Below, in pieces: positions 1 through 39,041 of a stretch of DNA of 39,041 bases. Origin of the DNA: a virus. The notes under the pieces were generated by a model, which was given only the letters and a program-made list of their open reading frames with translations, was not told where the DNA came from and did no database searches. Position 1 is the stretch's first letter. Each line of letters starts with the position of its first letter. The stretch is from positions 1 through 39,041 of the IMG/VR virus record IMGVR_UViG_3300050821_007639, one strand, 5' to 3'. Position numbers and translations under genes: made by a program.

Positions 1-83
1 ACGGCCGGAGCAGAACCCAAGGAATCGACCCGACTTTTATCCAAAAAAGGCAGGGACTTTAGGACTTGCACCGCGCCGCAACA

Positions 84-97
84 TCTGATAAGCTATA
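84..97. repeat. Left copy of a 14-bp direct repeat shared with the right end of the window
   Basis: TCTGATAAGCTATA here matches the last 14 bases of the window (39028-39041) at 13 of 14 positions, with an exact 11-base core GATAAGCTATA. The right copy stops where the window stops, so the true match could be longer. It could be part of an attachment site, a terminal redundancy, a regulator site, or chance. Confidence 0.4.
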
Positions 98-128
98 TGA
101 TTTTGTATTAACATAATCGCTAATCGGA

Positions 129-168
129 CGATCGGAACGGGGGCGTCACGGTGGGTGACATCCGATCG
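129..168 (-). terminator. Nested hairpin after the leftward gene ending at 179
   Basis: CGATCGGA (129-136) pairs perfectly with TCCGATCG (161-168). Inside it GTCAC (145-149) pairs with GTGAC (155-159). The hairpin starts about 10 bases past the stop codon of the leftward gene, which is where a terminator would be expected. No long T-run follows on the minus strand, so intrinsic termination is likely but not certain. Bases 1-178 hold no gene that I can support. Confidence 0.5.
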
Positions 169-178
169 CAATTCGCCT

Positions 179-445
179 TTATTTCTGCGGGGATTCGAAG
201 AATCGCAGCTGACGCTCGTCGGCGCGTGTCTGCTCCAGGATGCGCGCGAGCAGTTCGCCGCGATGATCCCGCATCCACCTTGCAAACAGCGCCTCGCCCT
301 CGCATCGCGCGAGTTCATCCAACACTGCCAATAATTCCTTTCGTAAGAGCGACGCGCGATTCAGCGTCGCCAGCTCCAGATTTTGCAGCGACGTTTCGGA
401 ACACAGAAGCGCGAAGTCTACGGGCAAGTGGAAGGTGTCGCTCAC
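179..445 (-). CDS. Small hypothetical protein, leftward
   Basis: This encodes 88 residues and starts at a GTG preceded on the minus strand by GGGAGAG at good spacing. A TTGACA promoter lies upstream (473-501, minus) and a hairpin lies just after the stop. The product looks helical, rich in Leu, Arg and Glu, with no transmembrane segment, cysteine cluster or known motif that I recognise. Transcription runs opposite to the main phage operons and away from the switch region. Small early or lysogeny-associated proteins often sit in such positions, but no function can be named. The promoter, ribosome-binding site and terminator-like hairpin together make it a convincing stand-alone gene. Confidence 0.7.
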   Translation of the reverse strand: MSDTFHLPVDFALLCSETSLQNLELATLNRASLLRKELLAVLDELARCEGEALFARWMRDHRGELLARILEQTRADERQLRFFESPQK

Positions 446-472
446 GGTTACTCTCCCGGATATGCTGCTGGC

Positions 473-501
473 TTGTTACTAATTCTGACGCCAAGTGTCA
501 A
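473..501 (-). promoter_or_regulatory. Promoter for the leftward gene 179-445
   Basis: On the minus strand a perfect TTGACA (501-496) is followed by a 17-base spacer and a weak -10 TAACAA (478-473). Transcription would start near 466, giving a short leader that contains the GGGAGAG ribosome-binding site. Confidence 0.5.
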
Positions 502-512
502 CAGGGGGTTTC

Positions 513-719
513 ATGAAGACGTATCGGGTCCGTTGGGACATCCTGATCGAAGCCGAATCCGCGCGCGCCGCGATTCGCCAGGCCAAGGAAATCCTGGCCG
601 ATCGGGAGAATGAAGCGACGATCTTCAGCGCGACGGTGGTTCGGCCGCGCGGCGCCGCTTCTTCCGCTCGGCGGCGGACGGGGGCGCGACATGCCAGGAC
701 TTCAACTCGGCGCAGGTAA
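513..719 (+). CDS. Small phage protein of unknown function
   Basis: This encodes 68 residues. ATG 513 was chosen because AGGGGG lies just upstream; a GTG at 495 is the alternative. The first 45 residues resemble a type of short phage protein with a beta strand (YRVRWDILIEA), a helix (SARAAIRQAKEIL) and a second strand ending in TIFSATVV. The Arg-rich tail after about residue 46 looks less constrained. It overlaps the 3' end of the convergent ribbon-helix-helix gene by 95 bases, so one of the two C-termini may be dispensable. I recognise no function. Confidence 0.6.
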   Translation: MKTYRVRWDILIEAESARAAIRQAKEILADRENEATIFSATVVRPRGAASSARRRTGARHARTSTRRR

Positions 720-876
720 TGCCGTTCTTCTTCATCTCGTCTAAAGCCCACCGCAACACCATGCAGGTGAACCGCGAGAACGTCTGTTCTTCCCGCCGTG
801 CGTAATCCGTTACCTCGTCCCGTAGGCTCGGCTGGATCGTAATCCCTGTATTTGTGCGTTTTTCATCCGTGATCAT
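625..876 (-). CDS. Ribbon-helix-helix (Arc/CopG-type) transcriptional regulator
   Basis: This encodes 83 residues. Residues about 8-50 fit the ribbon-helix-helix fold: a short strand (TGITIQPSL), helix A (RDEVTDYARREE), a turn (QTFSR) and helix B (FTCMVLRWALDEM). Proteins of this fold bind operators as dimers of dimers through the strand. The C-terminus is Lys/Arg-rich. ATG 876 was preferred over ATG 906 because a promoter (-10 GATACT at 892-887) places the transcript start next to it and the shorter form begins right before the domain. The gene diverges from the HTH gene at 945 and their promoters overlap, so the pair looks like a genetic switch. Which of the two is the maintenance repressor cannot be told. 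Confidence 0.75.
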   Translation of the reverse strand: MITDEKRTNTGITIQPSLRDEVTDYARREEQTFSRFTCMVLRWALDEMKKNGITCAELKSWHVAPPSAAERKKRRRAAEPPSR

Positions 877-886
877 GACAGGGACG

Positions 887-914
887 AGTATCTCATAAAA
901 GAACATCTTGACAA
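887..914 (-). promoter_or_regulatory. Leftward switch promoter for the ribbon-helix-helix gene
   Basis: On the minus strand TTGTCA (914-909), a 16-base spacer and GATACT (892-887) precede ATG 876 by 10 bases, implying a leaderless or nearly leaderless message. Its -35 hexamer overlaps the -35 of the rightward promoter (908-913), so RNA polymerase cannot occupy both at once. Confidence 0.5.
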
Positions 915-936
915 ATTAAAACTGATACCATATCGT
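908..936 (+). promoter_or_regulatory. Rightward switch promoter for the HTH gene and replication operon
   Basis: Perfect TTGACA (908-913), a 17-base spacer and TATCGT (931-936). ATG 945 follows the -10 by only 8 bases and has no Shine-Dalgarno sequence, so the message is probably leaderless. An operator-like inverted repeat covers the start site. Confidence 0.65.
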
Positions 937-944
937 CCGGCTTC

Positions 945-1163
945 ATGGTAGAAGCTACCAGAGTACTAGTACTGCCCGACGCGCTGATCGATTGCCGGGC
1001 GCGGCACTTTCTCACCCTCGAAGACGTGGCTTCCGCCGTGGGGGTGAGCCGGGCGTCGATTTCGAATATCGAACGGCGGATCTGCCAGCCGAAACGAACG
1101 ACTCGCCTGCTGTTGGTCGAATTCCTGAGAAAGCGCGGTTACGAAATCGAGGAGGTGGCGTGA
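945..1163 (+). CDS. Small helix-turn-helix (XRE/Cro-type) regulator
   Basis: This encodes 72 residues. Residues about 22-45 form a Cro/CI-type helix-turn-helix (LEDVASAVGVSRASISNIERR), with a supporting helix after it (TTRLLLVEFLRKRG). It is a DNA-binding core only, with no dimerisation or cleavage domain, so it is Cro-sized rather than CI-sized. ATG 945 lacks a ribosome-binding site but sits 8 bases after a -10 box, consistent with leaderless translation. The inverted repeat TGGTAG-AAG-CTACCA (946-960) overlaps the first codons, so a protein bound there would block this gene and the replication operon behind it. It overlaps the next gene by one base. Confidence 0.8.
   Translation: MVEATRVLVLPDALIDCRARHFLTLEDVASAVGVSRASISNIERRICQPKRTTRLLLVEFLRKRGYEIEEVA
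946..960. promoter_or_regulatory. Operator 1 (TGGTAG-N3-CTACCA), replication operon
   Basis: A perfect 6+6 inverted repeat with a 3-base centre (AAG) begins 10 bases after the -10 box and overlaps the start codon of the HTH gene. Three related sites lie at 6487, 23348 and 36858, each at a TTGAC promoter. Confidence 0.7.
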
Positions 1164-1375
1164 TGGAACTCGCGATGGTGTATGCGTCGGATTGCACGGC
1201 GGCGATTGTCTCGCCGCCTTTGGAATGCTCCGCTTGCGGTCACGTGACTTCCTGCCTTGTGAATCGCGACGGCCGGACGCGCTGCTATGACTGCGACGCC
1301 CACTACCAGGACATGAAGCTGGCCCTGGCTGAGGCGGCCGCGGTCGCATTGGGGTACGCATGGCCTGGGAGCTGA
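1163..1375 (+). CDS. Small zinc-ribbon protein
   Basis: This encodes 70 residues. ATG 1163 overlaps the stop of the HTH gene (TGATG) and AGGAGG lies upstream, so the two are translationally coupled. Two pairs, CSAC near residue 22 and CYDC near residue 39, form a four-cysteine zinc ribbon. The C-terminus is an Ala/Leu-rich helix. It sits between a regulator and the helicase in the early operon. The function is unknown; a DNA or protein adaptor role would be typical, but nothing here proves it. Confidence 0.7.
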   Translation: MELAMVYASDCTAAIVSPPLECSACGHVTSCLVNRDGRTRCYDCDAHYQDMKLALAEAAAVALGYAWPGS

Positions 1376-1581
1376 CGTCGCACGCCAAGCTCGCAGGGGC
1401 GGGCTACTTGTTCGTGCGGGAAGTGAACTGCCGGCGCTGTGGCGAGCCGGTGCTGCTGTATCGCACGGCCGGCGATCGCGCGATCGCGCTCGACCGCAAA
1501 AGTTTCGAGCCGCACGCGGCGCGTTGTAAACCAGCAAGGGCGCAAAAGCAGAAAACCGTTCAGCAAAGGGAGTTGTTCTAG
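1360..1581 (+). CDS. Small cysteine-containing early protein
   Basis: This encodes 73 residues and overlaps the previous gene by 16 bases. It contains CRRC near residue 24 and a later HAARC, which together resemble a C2HC zinc-binding site with the spacing seen in small phage zinc proteins. The C-terminal 20 residues are Lys/Arg/Gln-rich. It is followed within 5 bases by the helicase start and belongs to the same early operon. The function is unknown. Confidence 0.65.
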   Translation: MAWELTSHAKLAGAGYLFVREVNCRRCGEPVLLYRTAGDRAIALDRKSFEPHAARCKPARAQKQKTVQQRELF

Positions 1582-1585
1582 GCGT

Positions 1586-2941
1586 ATGCCTCACACGGAC
1601 GTCGAACGACCGCTGCCGCAAAATATCGAAGCGGAACGCGCCATCCTCGGTGCCATCCTGCTCGACAATGCCGCGCTGGACGAAGCAGCGCGGCGGCTCG
1701 ATCCCTCCCACTTTTTTCACGACCATCACCGGCGAATTTACGAGCAGATGCTCGCGCTCGACCAGGAGGCGCAACCGATTGACCTGGTCAGCGTGACCGA
1801 GCGCCTCCAGCGCAGCGGCGACCTGGCGAACGCCGGCGGGGCGGCCTATGTTTCGCAATTGATGGACGGCGTGCCTCATATTTCGAATGTCGAGCACTAT
1901 GCCGCGATCGTCCGGGAAAAAGCGCTGCTGCGCGGGCTGATTCATGCGGCGGGGTTCATTCAACAGCAGGCCGGCGCCGCGGAAGATCCGGCGCAAGAGA
2001 TCCTCGAACGCGCCCAGCAGTCGATTCTGTACCTCGGCGAAGGTCAAGCGGTCAGCGACCTGGTGCCCTTGCGCGATCTGATCAGTAATTCGCTGTCACA
2101 GCTCGAGCATCTGTTGACTTCTCCTCGCTCGATTTCCGGATTGCCGAGTGGTTATCCGCAACTCGATGGCGTGCTGTGCGGCCTGCACCCCGGGAATGTG
2201 GTGATCCTGGCCGCGCGGCCGTCGATCGGCAAAACGGCGCTGGCTCTGAATATTGCCGAGAACGTCGCTCGCGCGGGTTACCGCGTAGGGCTGTTTTCGC
2301 TGGAAATGAGTCGTGAGGAAATTCTGCAGCGGTTCATCGCTTCAGTCACGCGCCGTGACTTGCGCAAGCTTCGCGCCGGCGGGATGGGCGATGACGAATG
2401 GCGCGCGCTCGTGCATCAGCTTGCGGAGATGGGCCAGTTGCCGATCTGGGTCGACGATGCCAATCCCACGACGGTGGCCGAGATTGCGGCAAAAGCTCGC
2501 GTTTTGAAACGGCGTGAGGGTTTGGCGCTTGTGATCGTGGATTATCTGCAGCTCGTCGGCGGCGCCGCGCGCAATAAATACGCAAACCGCAACGAAGAAG
2601 TCGGCGCGTCGAGTCGCGCGCTCAAGTCGATGGCGCGGCAGCTGAAAGTGCCGGTGATCGTGCTCTCGCAACTCACTCGCGCGTCGGAGCGGGAAGAGCG
2701 ACGGCCGCAACTTTCGGATTTACGGGAGTCGGGCGCGATCGAGCAGGATGCCGACGTTGTGCTGTTTATTCATCGGCCGAAGGCCTTCGCGGTTGGCGAG
2801 CCGCCGGCCGAGCGCAATCGCACCGAATTGGTGATCGCAAAACAGCGCAACGGGCCGACTGAGGTTGTGAAGTTTATTTTCGTCTCGCAGTGCACACGCT
2901 TTGAGGAATTAGAACCCGAACTCTACCAGGAGCCCGCATGA
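1586..2941 (+). CDS. dnaB: Replicative DNA helicase, DnaB family
   Basis: This encodes 451 residues, the usual length for DnaB. The N-terminal domain begins with the typical PLPQNIEAERAILGAILLD. The RecA-like C-terminal domain has Walker A ARPSIGKT near residue 214 and Walker B VIVDYLQLV near residue 313, followed by the Arg-containing loops SQLTRASEREERRPQLSDL and ESGAIEQDADVV. It would unwind the phage fork as a hexameric ring. ATG 1586 was chosen because homology begins directly after it; a longer reading frame to 1439 overlaps the previous gene and has no DnaB-like sequence. It overlaps the initiator gene by four bases (ATGA). Carrying its own helicase and a loader indicates theta-type replication partly independent of the host DnaB-DnaC system. 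Confidence 0.95.
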   Translation: MPHTDVERPLPQNIEAERAILGAILLDNAALDEAARRLDPSHFFHDHHRRIYEQMLALDQEAQPIDLVSVTERLQRSGDLANAGGAAYVSQLMDGVPHISNVEHYAAIVREKALLRGLIHAAGFIQQQAGAAEDPAQEILERAQQSILYLGEGQAVSDLVPLRDLISNSLSQLEHLLTSPRSISGLPSGYPQLDGVLCGLHPGNVVILAARPSIGKTALALNIAENVARAGYRVGLFSLEMSREEILQRFIASVTRRDLRKLRAGGMGDDEWRALVHQLAEMGQLPIWVDDANPTTVAEIAAKARVLKRREGLALVIVDYLQLVGGAARNKYANRNEEVGASSRALKSMARQLKVPVIVLSQLTRASEREERRPQLSDLRESGAIEQDADVVLFIHRPKAFAVGEPPAERNRTELVIAKQRNGPTEVVKFIFVSQCTRFEELEPELYQEPA

Positions 2942-3615
2942 GCGGAAAAGCGCCCAAATCGCCCTTTCTCAGGCTATATCCGGGCGAGGAATTGCAGGCT
3001 CCGGTGAGCGGTTGTTCGATGGGGGCGCAAGGCTTGTGGCTGCGACTGCGAATGATTATGCACTCCTCTGAGCCCTACGGTTACCTCTGTCCCGTTAAAG
3101 TCCCCGCATCTTCTAACGGGACATCGGCGGGACATGTAGAGGGACAAACTGGGGACATTGACAGGACCGATAAGGCTCAGGCTGCGGCAATTCTCTCGGG
3201 ACATTTGCAGGACATCGGTGGGACATGTCCCAGCGATGCACTGGTTGCGCGAAGGTGCGGCATCCCTCTCGATGAGTATCGAGTCCTGAAAAACGAGCTC
3301 GATGAGGCCGGCGTGCCCAATTACACGGTGAGCGGAATCATGTATTGCGAGGAGCTTTTGCGTCAGGCAAGTGCTAGAGCGGAATGGAGATCGCGCAAGG
3401 CAAAGCAACGCGATTTGCCGTTCAACGGCGAAGCTTATGTCCCGCGAGAGTCACGCGAAGGTCACGCAACTGTCCCGCCGAATTCCGCTGGTAGTTCATA
3501 TTTCATATTAAATAAGAAAGGCCGCTCCAATGGCAAGCAGTCCGAAACGGAACGCCGGGAAGAAAACAACCGGCGAGCTGTTGAGTCAGCAGCAACGCGT
3601 GCGCGTGATCGGTGA
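2938..3615 (+). CDS. Putative replication initiator (lambda O-like position), carrying iterons
   Basis: This encodes 225 residues and starts at ATGA overlapping the helicase stop. Residues 1-45 (FLRLYPGEELQAPV, then LWLRLRMIMHSS) resemble the N-terminal region of phage replication proteins with a winged-helix domain. Residues about 75-110 (ILSGHLQDI through RVLKNELDEAGV) look like a second helical DNA-binding unit. The last third is basic and polar. The stretch between the two parts encodes a Gly/Thr/Asp-rich linker whose DNA is packed with CGGGACAT repeats, as expected when an initiator gene contains its own origin. The next gene starts 85 bases before this one ends. The assignment rests on context and repeat content more than on motif strength. 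Confidence 0.6.
   Translation: MSGKAPKSPFLRLYPGEELQAPVSGCSMGAQGLWLRLRMIMHSSEPYGYLCPVKVPASSNGTSAGHVEGQTGDIDRTDKAQAAAILSGHLQDIGGTCPSDALVARRCGIPLDEYRVLKNELDEAGVPNYTVSGIMYCEELLRQASARAEWRSRKAKQRDLPFNGEAYVPRESREGHATVPPNSAGSSYFILNKKGRSNGKQSETERREENNRRAVESAATRARDR
3088..3231. repeat. Iteron cluster inside the initiator gene, candidate replication origin
   Basis: GGGACAT or a one-base variant occurs at 3118, 3129, 3141, 3152, 3198, 3209 and 3220. A 19-base unit at 3119-3137 recurs at 3210-3228 with one mismatch. TGTCCCGTTA (3088-3097) and TAACGGGACA (3114-3123) form a perfect inverted repeat, and GGGACATGTCCC (3220-3231) is a perfect palindrome. Two further inverted copies lie at 3437-3444 and 3471-3477. 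An AT-rich tract follows at about 3490-3522. Confidence 0.65.
3490..3522. other. AT-rich tract, candidate DNA-unwinding element
   Basis: This run, rich in A and T (TTCATATTTCATATTAAATA and flanks), stands out in a GC-rich genome. It lies downstream of the iterons and inside the overlap-prone end of the initiator gene. In lambda-type origins an easily melted tract occupies this place. Confidence 0.45.
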
Positions 3616-6446: not shown

Positions 6447-6475
6447 TTGACATCATCTGGTGGCGGTTCTAGTCT
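6447..6475 (+). promoter_or_regulatory. Promoter for the decoration-like gene
   Basis: Perfect TTGACA (6447-6452), a 17-base spacer and TAGTCT (6470-6475), with an operator-like inverted repeat starting 12 bases after the -10 box. A GGAGGAG just upstream (6424-6430) is not placed to serve the gene at 6504. Confidence 0.6.
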
Positions 6476-6486
6476 GTGCGCGCGTG

Positions 6487-6501
6487 TGGTAGGGCATACC
6501 A
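6487..6501. promoter_or_regulatory. Operator 2 (TGGTAG-N3-ATACCA), decoration-like gene
   Basis: The inverted repeat has one mismatch in the right arm and one additional flanking pair (G6486 with C6502). It lies at the expected transcription start. A GTG at 6486, in frame with the following gene, is embedded in it. Confidence 0.65.
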
Positions 6502-13408: not shown

Positions 13409-13783
13409 ATGCTTAAGCTATCCGATGAGTCGCGGGGAAGGCTGCTGGGGTTATATCATGGTATGGGATACCAGGATTTCCTTGACATTGGCGAGCAGCT
13501 GTGTCAATTATCCGAGACGGAATTGCTGAAGATGAACCGCGCCGCCGGCGCGACCACCGAGCAAATCCTAAGCGCGCAGGAGCAGTGCCGGGCTCAGCGC
13601 GTGTTTTTCGAACGCTGGCAGATGGAGATGCAGCAGCAAGTGAAAACCTTCGTGGATGAGCAAGAGGCGAGAGGCAAACCTCAACCGCCGCCCGTGGCCC
13701 CGGAGCCGGCGATGAGCCTGGGCGATGCGGCGGAGATCTTAGGGTTAATCCCGGAATCTACCGGTGAGGCATATGGCGGGTGA
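13409..13783 (+). CDS. Small head-associated protein
   Basis: This encodes 124 residues from ATG 13409; GTG 13388 would add seven residues. It is mostly helical, including a likely coiled coil (QEQCRAQRVFFERWQMEMQQQVKTF) and a Pro-rich hinge before a final AEILGLIP helix. It sits between portal and scaffold and overlaps the scaffold start. A head-assembly role is probable by position; the family is not recognised. Confidence 0.6.
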   Translation: MLKLSDESRGRLLGLYHGMGYQDFLDIGEQLCQLSETELLKMNRAAGATTEQILSAQEQCRAQRVFFERWQMEMQQQVKTFVDEQEARGKPQPPPVAPEPAMSLGDAAEILGLIPESTGEAYGG

Positions 13784-23142: not shown

Positions 23143-23343
23143 ATGCCGGAGCATTTTCCAAAGCGGACGCTTGAGGCGCTGTGTTGGTGCAACACCTGCG
23201 GAAAAAACACGATGCACCGGATCGACGATGGCCGGCGCGGTCCTTGCCAGGAGCACGCTGCGAAGGTGACGTCGAAGCGCGAGCCGGCGCCGGAATCGGG
23301 AAATTTGTTCCCCGTGGAAACTGATGCAACAAAAGGGACTTGA
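23143..23343 (+). CDS. Small zinc-finger protein
   Basis: This encodes 66 residues. CWCNTCGKNTMHR followed by GRRGPCQEH gives a C-x2-C...H...C type zinc site in the first half; the rest is charged. Short zinc proteins of this style are common in phage structural regions. Its last codon overlaps the -35 box of the promoter at 23340. Confidence 0.6.
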   Translation: MPEHFPKRTLEALCWCNTCGKNTMHRIDDGRRGPCQEHAAKVTSKREPAPESGNLFPVETDATKGT

Positions 23344-23368
23344 CTTGTGGTATGAGCTACCATACCAT
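23340..23368 (+). promoter_or_regulatory. Promoter for the membrane-protein/GNAT pair
   Basis: TTGACT (23340-23345), a 17-base spacer and TACCAT (23363-23368). The operator fills the spacer, so a bound repressor would occlude polymerase directly. ATG 23377 follows the -10 by 8 bases with no Shine-Dalgarno sequence. Confidence 0.5.
23348..23362. promoter_or_regulatory. Operator 3 (TGGTAT-N3-CTACCA), membrane/GNAT pair
   Basis: This is the same inverted repeat as at 946, with one mismatch in the left arm and centre GAG. It lies between the -35 and -10 elements. Confidence 0.65.
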
Positions 23369-23376
23369 CCGCGTTC

Positions 23377-23514
23377 ATGGAAGAGTCGCAGGATGAAGAA
23401 ATCGCGGAAATGAAGCGGGCGCTGGACTTAAGCCTGCTGATTTTCATGATCGCGCTGTTTTTGGCCATCGCGGGGGCGGCGATTTGGGTATCTCGATTGA
23501 TCCATCTCATCTGA
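23377..23514 (+). CDS. Small single-pass membrane protein under operator control
   Basis: This encodes 45 residues. An acidic N-terminus (MEESQDEEIAEMKRA) precedes one transmembrane helix (LSLLIFMIALFLAIAGAAIWV) and a short basic tail. It is the first gene after an operator-controlled promoter within the tail region, so it can be expressed independently. Its start codon lies 8 bases from the -10 box, suggesting leaderless translation. Possible roles include holin-like, superinfection-exclusion or host-modifying activity; none is shown. It overlaps the GNAT gene. Confidence 0.6.
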   Translation: MEESQDEEIAEMKRALDLSLLIFMIALFLAIAGAAIWVSRLIHLI

Positions 23515-36818: not shown

Positions 36819-36846
36819 TTGACAGGTTCCCTGCCGCTGGCATAGT
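36819..36846 (+). promoter_or_regulatory. Promoter for the ParB operon
   Basis: Perfect TTGACA (36819-36824), a 16-base spacer and CATAGT (36841-36846), with an operator-like repeat starting 12 bases after the -10 box. Confidence 0.6.
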
Positions 36847-36857
36847 CTCCGCGCATA

Positions 36858-36872
36858 TGGTAGGAACTACCA
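36858..36872. promoter_or_regulatory. Operator 4 (TGGTAG-N3-CTACCA), ParB operon
   Basis: Perfect 6+6 inverted repeat with centre GAA, overlapping an in-frame ATG (36857). It lies at the expected transcription start, as at 946 and 6487. Confidence 0.7.
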
Positions 36873-36895: not shown

Positions 36896-37150
36896 ATGGA
36901 ATACCAGATGGTGGCGTGCGATCGCTGTCATCGCAGCTACAAGGCTCACACCGATCCGGCAGTTGAAATGGTCAAGATGACGGTTCTCGTGCCGGAAGGT
37001 CACATCACACAGACGAGCAAATACGAATCGCGAGAGGTGCATCTCTGTCGGGGCTGTCATCTCTCCTTCCGGCACTGGTGGGTCGCCGGCGATCCGGAGA
37101 CACGGACGGCCGCCGAAGGTCTGCCGGCTGAAGCGGGAGGCGACCGATGA
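36896..37150 (+). CDS. Small zinc-ribbon protein, first gene of the ParB operon
   Basis: This encodes 84 residues. ATG 36896 was chosen for the strong GAGGAGG upstream; ATG 36857 inside the operator would extend it in frame. CDRCHRSY near residue 7 and LCRGCHLSF near residue 46 make a C4-type zinc ribbon. It overlaps ParB by four bases. The function is unknown; a partner in the ParB complex is possible. Confidence 0.65.
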   Translation: MEYQMVACDRCHRSYKAHTDPAVEMVKMTVLVPEGHITQTSKYESREVHLCRGCHLSFRHWWVAGDPETRTAAEGLPAEAGGDR

Positions 37151-38736
37151 GCATGAACGCGCCTGATTCGCTAGCCGCTGTTTCCACCGGTATCCAGAGA
37201 ATCCCGCTCGCACAGCTGCGCGAATCGCCGATGAATCCGCGCAAGGCGTTTGACGCGGCGAAGCTGAAAGAGCTCGCGGAATCGATCCGGCAGAAGGGAA
37301 TTCTCACGCCGCTGCTCGTTCGCCGCCGGAAATACGAGCTCGCGTCCAAAGCCGCCACAGAGCCTGACATGACCTATGAGATCCTCGCCGGCGCACGGCG
37401 CTTTCGCGCGGCTAAATTGGTGGCGGAAATCCTCGGCGCCGGCGACGCGCCATGCCTCGTCCTGGAGGTCGGCGACACCGCGGCGCTCGAAATCATCACG
37501 ATGGAGAACCTGCAGCGCGAAGACTTGACGGCGCTCGAGGAAGCGCAAGGGTTCAAGCAGCTGCTCGATCTCGGCAAATACGACGTCGGCGAACTCGCGA
37601 AGCGCCTGGGCAAGAGCCAGAGTTATGTGTACCAGCGCATCAAGCTGGTCGACCTGGCGCCCGATGCCGCGAAAGCCCTCGTCGAGAACAGGATCACGCC
37701 CGGGCACGCCATCCTGATTGCCCGCCTGCAGCCGAATGATCAGGCGCGCGCGCTGAGGGAAGCGGCGCCGACACGATACAATCCCCTCGGCCGAAGCGTA
37801 CGCGAGCTCGGCAATTTCATCAAGGAGCAGATTCAGCTCGATCTCACACGCGCGCCCTGGAACCTCGACGACCCGACGCTCCTGTCCGTCGCCCGGGCAG
37901 CATCCTGTAGTGCCTGTCCGAAGCGTGAGAAGGATTCCTGTCTCGATCCCGCCTGCTACGAAGCGAAGCTCGCGGCGCATCTCCTGCGCGTGGAAAAGGG
38001 CGCGGGCGGGCGTTTGCTGAAATTGTCGGCCGAATATGGCGGCGGCGAAGGCCTGCTCGGAAAAATAAAATGGCACGAAGCGAAGCCGGGCAGCTGTCCG
38101 GACGCGACCGCCGGCCTGGTGATGGAGGGCGGCTGGGCAAACGGCCGAGAGCACAGGCGTGGCGAGCAGCTCACTGTCTGCGTCAATCCGAAATGCAAGG
38201 TCCACTGGAAACAGGAAACGGCTGCGGGCAGTTCCTCGTACAAGCGCCCCGCGGCCGAGCTGAAAAAAGAGCGCAAGAGGCGCGAGGAGCTCGCGAAGCG
38301 CGGCCGGCTGTTTAAGGCGCTGACGGAAAAGCGCATCGTCGTCACGGACGACGACACGCGCAAGATCGCGGACTGGATGGCCGATCGTTTGGATCACGAC
38401 CATATTAGTAACAAGGCCAAGCGGCTGTGCGAGGCGATGGGCTGGGAACCGGCCAAGACGAATTACGGCGGTAAAGGTTATGAGGGTGCTGTCCGTAAGC
38501 GACTGAAAGCAATGAAGATCGAAGACGTCGAGCAGTGGATCCTCTGGCTCGTGATCGCCGACGAGGATCTGTATTTTGGCACCTGGGAGACGCCCCGGCC
38601 GGGCCTGCTGGCGGCCTGCGTGAAGCGCGCCAAGATCAAACTGCCGCCGCCCGTCGCCAAAACGCCCGCGAAGCCGAAATCGCACACGTCTGCAAAAGTC
38701 AAGCCGGCGCCGGCCAAGAAGAAGAGGGCGGCATGA
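37147..38736 (+). CDS. parB: ParB/Spo0J-like DNA-binding protein with internal cysteine cluster
   Basis: This encodes 529 residues. The N-terminal ParB domain has IPLAQLRESPMNPRKAFD, box II GARRFRAAK near residue 85 and NLQREDLTALEEAQGF. The KorB-like helix-turn-helix DVGELAKRLGKSQSYVYQRI lies near residue 147. Residues about 254-280 hold a four-cysteine cluster (CSACPKREKDSC, CYEAK), and a later CVNPKCK is present. The C-terminus is a Lys/Pro tail. ParB proteins bind centromere-like sites and usually work with a ParA ATPase, which is not seen here. This longer, cysteine-bearing type is known from plasmids and other mobile elements. The gene has its own operator-controlled promoter upstream and a dispersed palindrome in its 3' end. 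Confidence 0.85.
   Translation: MSMNAPDSLAAVSTGIQRIPLAQLRESPMNPRKAFDAAKLKELAESIRQKGILTPLLVRRRKYELASKAATEPDMTYEILAGARRFRAAKLVAEILGAGDAPCLVLEVGDTAALEIITMENLQREDLTALEEAQGFKQLLDLGKYDVGELAKRLGKSQSYVYQRIKLVDLAPDAAKALVENRITPGHAILIARLQPNDQARALREAAPTRYNPLGRSVRELGNFIKEQIQLDLTRAPWNLDDPTLLSVARAASCSACPKREKDSCLDPACYEAKLAAHLLRVEKGAGGRLLKLSAEYGGGEGLLGKIKWHEAKPGSCPDATAGLVMEGGWANGREHRRGEQLTVCVNPKCKVHWKQETAAGSSSYKRPAAELKKERKRREELAKRGRLFKALTEKRIVVTDDDTRKIADWMADRLDHDHISNKAKRLCEAMGWEPAKTNYGGKGYEGAVRKRLKAMKIEDVEQWILWLVIADEDLYFGTWETPRPGLLAACVKRAKIKLPPPVAKTPAKPKSHTSAKVKPAPAKKKRAA
38679..38696. repeat. Dispersed 18-bp palindrome, copy 7
   Basis: ATCGCACACGTCTGCAAA matches the consensus at 15 of 18 positions, with the right half intact. 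It is inside the parB reading frame near its end. Confidence 0.6.
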
Positions 38737-38989: not shown

Positions 38990-39018
38990 TTGACAAATGA
39001 AGCCGAACGCGTCATGAT
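38990..39018 (+). promoter_or_regulatory. Outward promoter at the right end
   Basis: Perfect TTGACA (38990-38995), a 17-base spacer and CATGAT (39013-39018). It points out of the window; on a circular or concatemeric genome it would read into base 1. No operator copy is visible near it. Confidence 0.5.
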
Positions 39019-39027
39019 GCGGCTGCG

Positions 39028-39041
39028 TCCGATAAGCTATA
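39028..39041. repeat. Right copy of the end-associated direct repeat
   Basis: TCCGATAAGCTATA matches 84-97 at 13 of 14 positions. The window ends inside or at the end of it. Confidence 0.4.

Follow-up and report, generated by a model that had tools for sequence, protein, structure and literature searches.

In several phages one repressor serves several operators scattered over promoters, as with the conserved inverted repeats of Streptomyces phage phiC31 and the C1 operators of P1; the phage described here appears to have several operators for one repressor too, a likeness of general arrangement. In PY54, the parts of the published account drawn on here describe prophage repressor and Cro genes that flank the control region, cI and cro mRNAs that are both leaderless by RACE, and a Cro protein with a single operator (PMC4488713). 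In L5-type phages, repressor sites called stoperators are scattered at promoters and possibly in transcribed regions; they are asymmetric 13-mers that follow the direction of transcription, number more than 20 and are bound by a monomer (PMC9283540). In E. coli, bidirectional promoters share a -10 box and have starts that are commonly 10-23 bp apart, so that polymerase sits in one of two opposed orientations and steric exclusion is expected; in the five that were measured, polymerases did not compete at the low basal activity, and competition was seen only once one direction was made strong (PMC12825309).

We analysed a stretch of 39,041 bases (the window), the whole of an IMG/VR record that is classed there as linear and is possibly incomplete. 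The large terminase has Tunturiibacter phage Tunturi_3 as its nearest relative among phage records (27% identity), the head protein is 57% identical to its Tunturi_3 counterpart and the portal matches the same phage group; the source is a soil phage, and because of this kinship its host is probably an Acidobacteriota bacterium. At the left of the window, two genes diverge from a 68-nt gap:

908 to 936, plus strand: rightward promoter (TTGACA 908-913, 17-nt spacer, TATCGT 931-936; 10 of 12 consensus positions)
945 to 1163, plus strand: gene for a 72-aa, Cro-sized XRE helix-turn-helix protein, from ATG 945
887 to 914, minus strand: candidate leftward promoter (TTGTCA 914-909, 16-nt spacer, TG 895-894, GATACT 892-887; 9 of 12)
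625 to 876, minus strand: gene for an 83-aa protein from ATG 876, or 93 aa if from ATG 906

When we read the letters directly, the -35 boxes of the two promoters overlapped just as a preliminary description of this DNA had said, and all of its coordinates were correct. A consensus scan of positions 1-3000 returned only these two promoters (2 seen, 0.9 expected). The XRE identity of the rightward protein is confirmed by Pfam, with matches above the cut-off to HTH_31 (3.2e-6) and HTH_3 (2.6e-5), and ATG 945 is likely to be the true start because the next in-frame start codon falls within the helix-turn-helix. Small genes and then a DnaB-like helicase (1586) follow downstream. The leftward protein matches no family in Pfam, NCBIfam or PHROG; by eye its pattern is ribbon-helix-helix-like. 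The AF2 models of both proteins are of poor quality, and that of the leftward protein has helices at 16-28 and 35-50 (pLDDT 60).

How much the overlap means depends on the leftward promoter. Its -35 match is automatic, since any TTGACAA gives TTGTCAA on the opposite strand, and the overlap of the boxes is thus weak evidence for a switch; it is also forced, because two leaderless promoters, each about 37-39 nt long, together exceed the 68-nt gap. The leftward -10 box matches at 4 of 6 positions, which has a chance probability of 7.3% given the fixed -35 box and the local base composition, and taken alone this predicted promoter is marginal, near chance level. The leftward ORF has a low coding score and we found no homologue. 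These points suggest a reading in which the leftward promoter is spurious, the leftward ORF is transcribed from another place or is no gene at all, and there is no switch here. We consider this reading somewhat unlikely: the gap is AT-rich (40% GC against 60% in the surroundings), which suits two promoters, the leftward promoter has an extended -10 TG, and ATG 876 has no Shine-Dalgarno (SD) sequence, as a leaderless start should be. On the minus strand there is also TTTAAT (920-915; 5 of 6 -10 positions) 8 nt ahead of ATG 906, with no -35 box, and the leftward ORF may instead have its leaderless start at ATG 906.

If both promoters are used, mutual exclusion of polymerases at 908/914 is plausible from the geometry. 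As at the E. coli bidirectional promoters, polymerase would occupy one of two opposed orientations; in contrast to them, the -10 boxes are separate and the predicted transcript starts lie about 65-69 bp apart. Because the E. coli promoters share the -10 and not the -35 box, they are an inexact model for this locus. An overlap of -35 boxes is not reported for PY54 in the parts of that account used here (PMC4488713).

The preliminary description had also called the starts leaderless. ATG 945, 876 and 23377 do lie 8, 10 and 8 nt from their -10 boxes, and at SD distance none of the three has a match of at least 3 bases to TAAGGAGGTGA; most other genes in the window have 4-8 bases that match this sequence. 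ATG 36857 is likewise without an SD match, and all four starts (945, 23377, 876 and 36857) fit the spacing of TA-led leaderless genes, in which a -10 box is expected about 10-14 nt before the start codon. When we counted promoters with at least 9 of 12 matches that were followed by an ATG 6-10 nt past the -10 box, we found 6 distinct ATGs in the window, compared to a mean of 0.6 and a maximum of 2 in 60 shuffles; two of the six (33010 and 28958, both minus strand) are probably due to chance. Leaderless starts at predicted promoters are thus well supported by the sequence, through this enrichment, the missing SD matches and a similar enrichment in related phages (below).

The preliminary description had proposed repressor control and did not contain the palindrome TGGTA-N5-TACCA, which backs and extends that proposal. 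We found five exact copies of it in the window and none in 100 shuffles; there are no one-mismatch copies, and the next best have two mismatches. The copies, and the promoters and genes next to them, are as follows:

946 to 960: putative operator copy 1, TGGTAGAAGCTACCA, overlapping ATG 945
6447 to 6475, plus strand: second operator-linked promoter (TTGACA 6447-6452, 17-nt spacer, weak -10 box TAGTCT 6470-6475, only 3 of 6)
6487 to 6501: putative operator copy 2, TGGTAGGGCATACCA, where GTG 6486 shares the reading frame of ATG 6504
13459 to 13473: putative operator copy 3, TGGTATGGGATACCA, within gene 13409-13783, in its 5' part; no -35 box is linked to it
23340 to 23368, plus strand: third promoter (TTGACT 23340-23345, 17-nt spacer, TACCAT 23363-23368)
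23348 to 23362: putative operator copy 4, TGGTATGAGCTACCA, in the spacer of the third promoter, between its two boxes
23377 to 23514, plus strand: gene for a 45-aa predicted membrane protein
36819 to 36848, plus strand: fourth promoter (TTGACA 36819-36824; -10 box CATAGT 36841-36846 or TAGTCT 36843-36848)
36858 to 36872: putative operator copy 5, TGGTAGGAACTACCA, overlapped by ATG 36857
36896 to 37150, plus strand: gene for an 84-aa small cysteine-rich protein, with a strong SD (AGGAGGT, 7 nt) at ATG 36896
37147 to 38736: gene for a ParB-like protein (TIGR00180, 4e-36), located past operator copy 5

Four of the five palindromes have TTGAC within 45 nt upstream, and four were reached in none of 100,000 random placements. 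At three of them TTGACA lies 38-40 nt upstream (binomial P 1.6e-9, for a spacing picked post hoc). The 908 and 23340 promoters have TACCATAnCnTCCGnnTTCATG in common, with a 22-nt core that ends in ATG (0.01 expected). At least four of the five palindromes are therefore located at promoters, and the four promoters would fit a dispersed phage repressor regulon; the copy at 13459 may be a transcription roadblock or a chance copy. A further promoter match led by TTGACAA, at 38990-39018 at the right end of the window, resembles the 908 promoter around the -35 box. Like PY54/N15 immB, the locus has one intergenic region between two divergent genes, predicted leaderless starts, a small Cro-type protein and a palindromic operator, and it differs from the single Cro operator of PY54 in its five dispersed copies (PMC4488713; compared with the parts of that account used here). 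Like the L5-type sites, the copies are scattered at promoters and possibly in transcribed regions; they are palindromic, five in number and mostly at promoters, and their symmetry is unlike the asymmetric stoperators.

At three copies the preceding base completes an RTG codon in the same reading frame as the gene that follows, giving ATG GTA GAA GCT ACC (945), GTG GTA GGG CAT ACC (6486) and ATG GTA GGA ACT ACC (36857), or in general ATG/GTG GTA nnn nnT ACC A. The starts at 36857 and 6486 are doubtful because the SD-led ATG 36896, 13 codons further on, and ATG 6504 lie downstream of them, and both may have arisen only because the operator starts with TGG. A palindrome at a start codon could also act at the RNA level and not as a DNA operator, by folding the 5' end of the transcript into a hairpin that masks the leaderless start. 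In the stretches that we folded, the 945 and 6486 transcripts do form a hairpin (-7.0 and -10.5 kcal/mol) in which the start codon is largely paired; however, the 36857 transcript favours another fold, and neither arm varies among the five copies, so there are no compensatory changes, which points to sequence recognition. We dropped the hairpin as the main mechanism because at 23348 the palindrome comes before the predicted transcript start, and we regard it as extremely unlikely. A combined role for the same 15 bases (repressor site, start codon plus N-terminus, translation-limiting hairpin), with polymerase exclusion by the overlapping promoters in addition, is very unlikely.

We favour a DNA operator bound by a dimeric repressor. 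The 10-bp spacing of the half-sites suits an XRE dimer, as in lambdoid repressors, and the likeliest binder, judging from position and family, is the XRE protein (945-1163), whose size is that of a Cro protein and whose gene lies on the first operator. Alternatively, the leftward protein (625-876) or a repressor encoded off the contig could bind the operator and the XRE protein could have another role. The two helices of the low-confidence model and the ribbon-helix-helix-like pattern would agree with the first of these, and the possibly incomplete record leaves room for the second. We think either unlikely, since no family model supports the ribbon-helix-helix reading and it is the XRE gene that sits directly on an operator, a position often seen for autoregulated phage regulators.

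Taken together, these data make it reasonably probable that the locus is a tailed phage's early control region, with a leaderless XRE mRNA, a dimeric repressor on palindromes and overlapping divergent promoters. The 908 promoter would give an RNA that starts at A945 or an adjacent base and is leaderless or nearly so, and that carries the 72-aa regulator, likely Cro-like, together with replication genes including the DnaB-like helicase. A dimeric repressor, most likely the XRE protein, would bind TGGTA-N5-TACCA; it would cover the core promoter at 23348 and the transcript start (about +2 to +16) at 946, 6487 and 36858, which would block polymerase and turn off initiation at four promoters. The leftward gene would probably be read from the promoter that overlaps the rightward -35 box, with one polymerase there at a time. 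When we sought operators for both promoters, we found a single perfect copy, at the rightward start; near the leftward -35 box there is only an operator-like stretch (916-930) that matches at 7 of 10 positions. Relative to the predicted leftward start, the operator is placed about 66-84 bp upstream, and a bound repressor would leave the leftward promoter free; with the rightward promoter repressed, the leftward promoter would be unopposed and leftward transcription favoured.

The final 11 bases of the window (39031-39041, GATAAGCTATA) are repeated at 87-97, which may hint at a terminal overlap or a circular genome. We searched the window for a tyrosine or serine recombinase (integrase) and found neither family; given this and the ParB-like gene, plasmid-like maintenance is possible.

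To see how the arrangement compares in relatives, we scanned 80 relative loci obtained from a terminase alignment plus Tunturi_3 (1.03 Mb) and found 63 strong promoters (at least 11 of 12 matches), 33 of them with a nearby ORF. An ATG lies 5-11 nt past the -10 box in 19 of these 33, and in 4 of 28 such promoters from other phages (Fisher P 0.0006), a control set that was retrieved through the operator pattern and is a non-random sample. Because of this enrichment, the Tunturi-like group appears to use leaderless starts habitually at its strong promoters, which agrees with the 13.3% of genes predicted to be leaderless in Acidobacteria (PMC3160421). The divergent leaderless arrangement is not unique to the window phage, as four Tunturi-like loci have such pairs:

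L014: 4313/4414
L040: 1574/1664
L073: 4004/4114
L083: 1668/1758

In each, as in the window, two divergent strong promoters have an ATG 6-11 nt from the -10 box; these pairs adjoin an RNase H-like gene, their -35 boxes start 16-40 bp apart and do not overlap, and we found no operator common to them.

The palindrome itself occurs only four times in 32 related records (about 1.7 Mb), at most once per record, and the set is thus specific to the window phage. In viral contigs, phages and related records we found no homologue that had this XRE protein or these operators, and the search for relatives of the XRE or leftward protein gave only one weak 35-residue match, in a Limisphaerales MAG. IMG/VR scans for promoter-operator patterns returned 71 and 33 loci at a chance-like level, with no more than two copies each, in which window-type proteins were limited to distant DnaB helicases; a scan of IMG/VR for the exact 908/23340 core returned no loci. 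Palindromic repeats in two relatives (TACTC-N-GAGTA in G006 L169, 3170-3860, and GTAGGA-N5-TCCTAC in G008 L170, 2400-2680) were rejected as switch operators, as they lie within replication-region genes and are iteron-like. G006 L169 also has a small ribbon-helix-helix-like protein (2636-2872) upstream of replication-like genes.

The proposed circuit belongs to a known general kind, the phage repressor regulon; the overlap of an operator with a leaderless start codon is unusual. For phages related to those of Acidobacteriota, whose gene control is scarcely studied, the window offers a candidate regulon with one site sequence, four promoters and one candidate protein. Leaderless starts at strong promoters are indicated as common in Tunturi-like phages, and annotation of acidobacterial phages by SD sequences alone would miss or misplace such starts.
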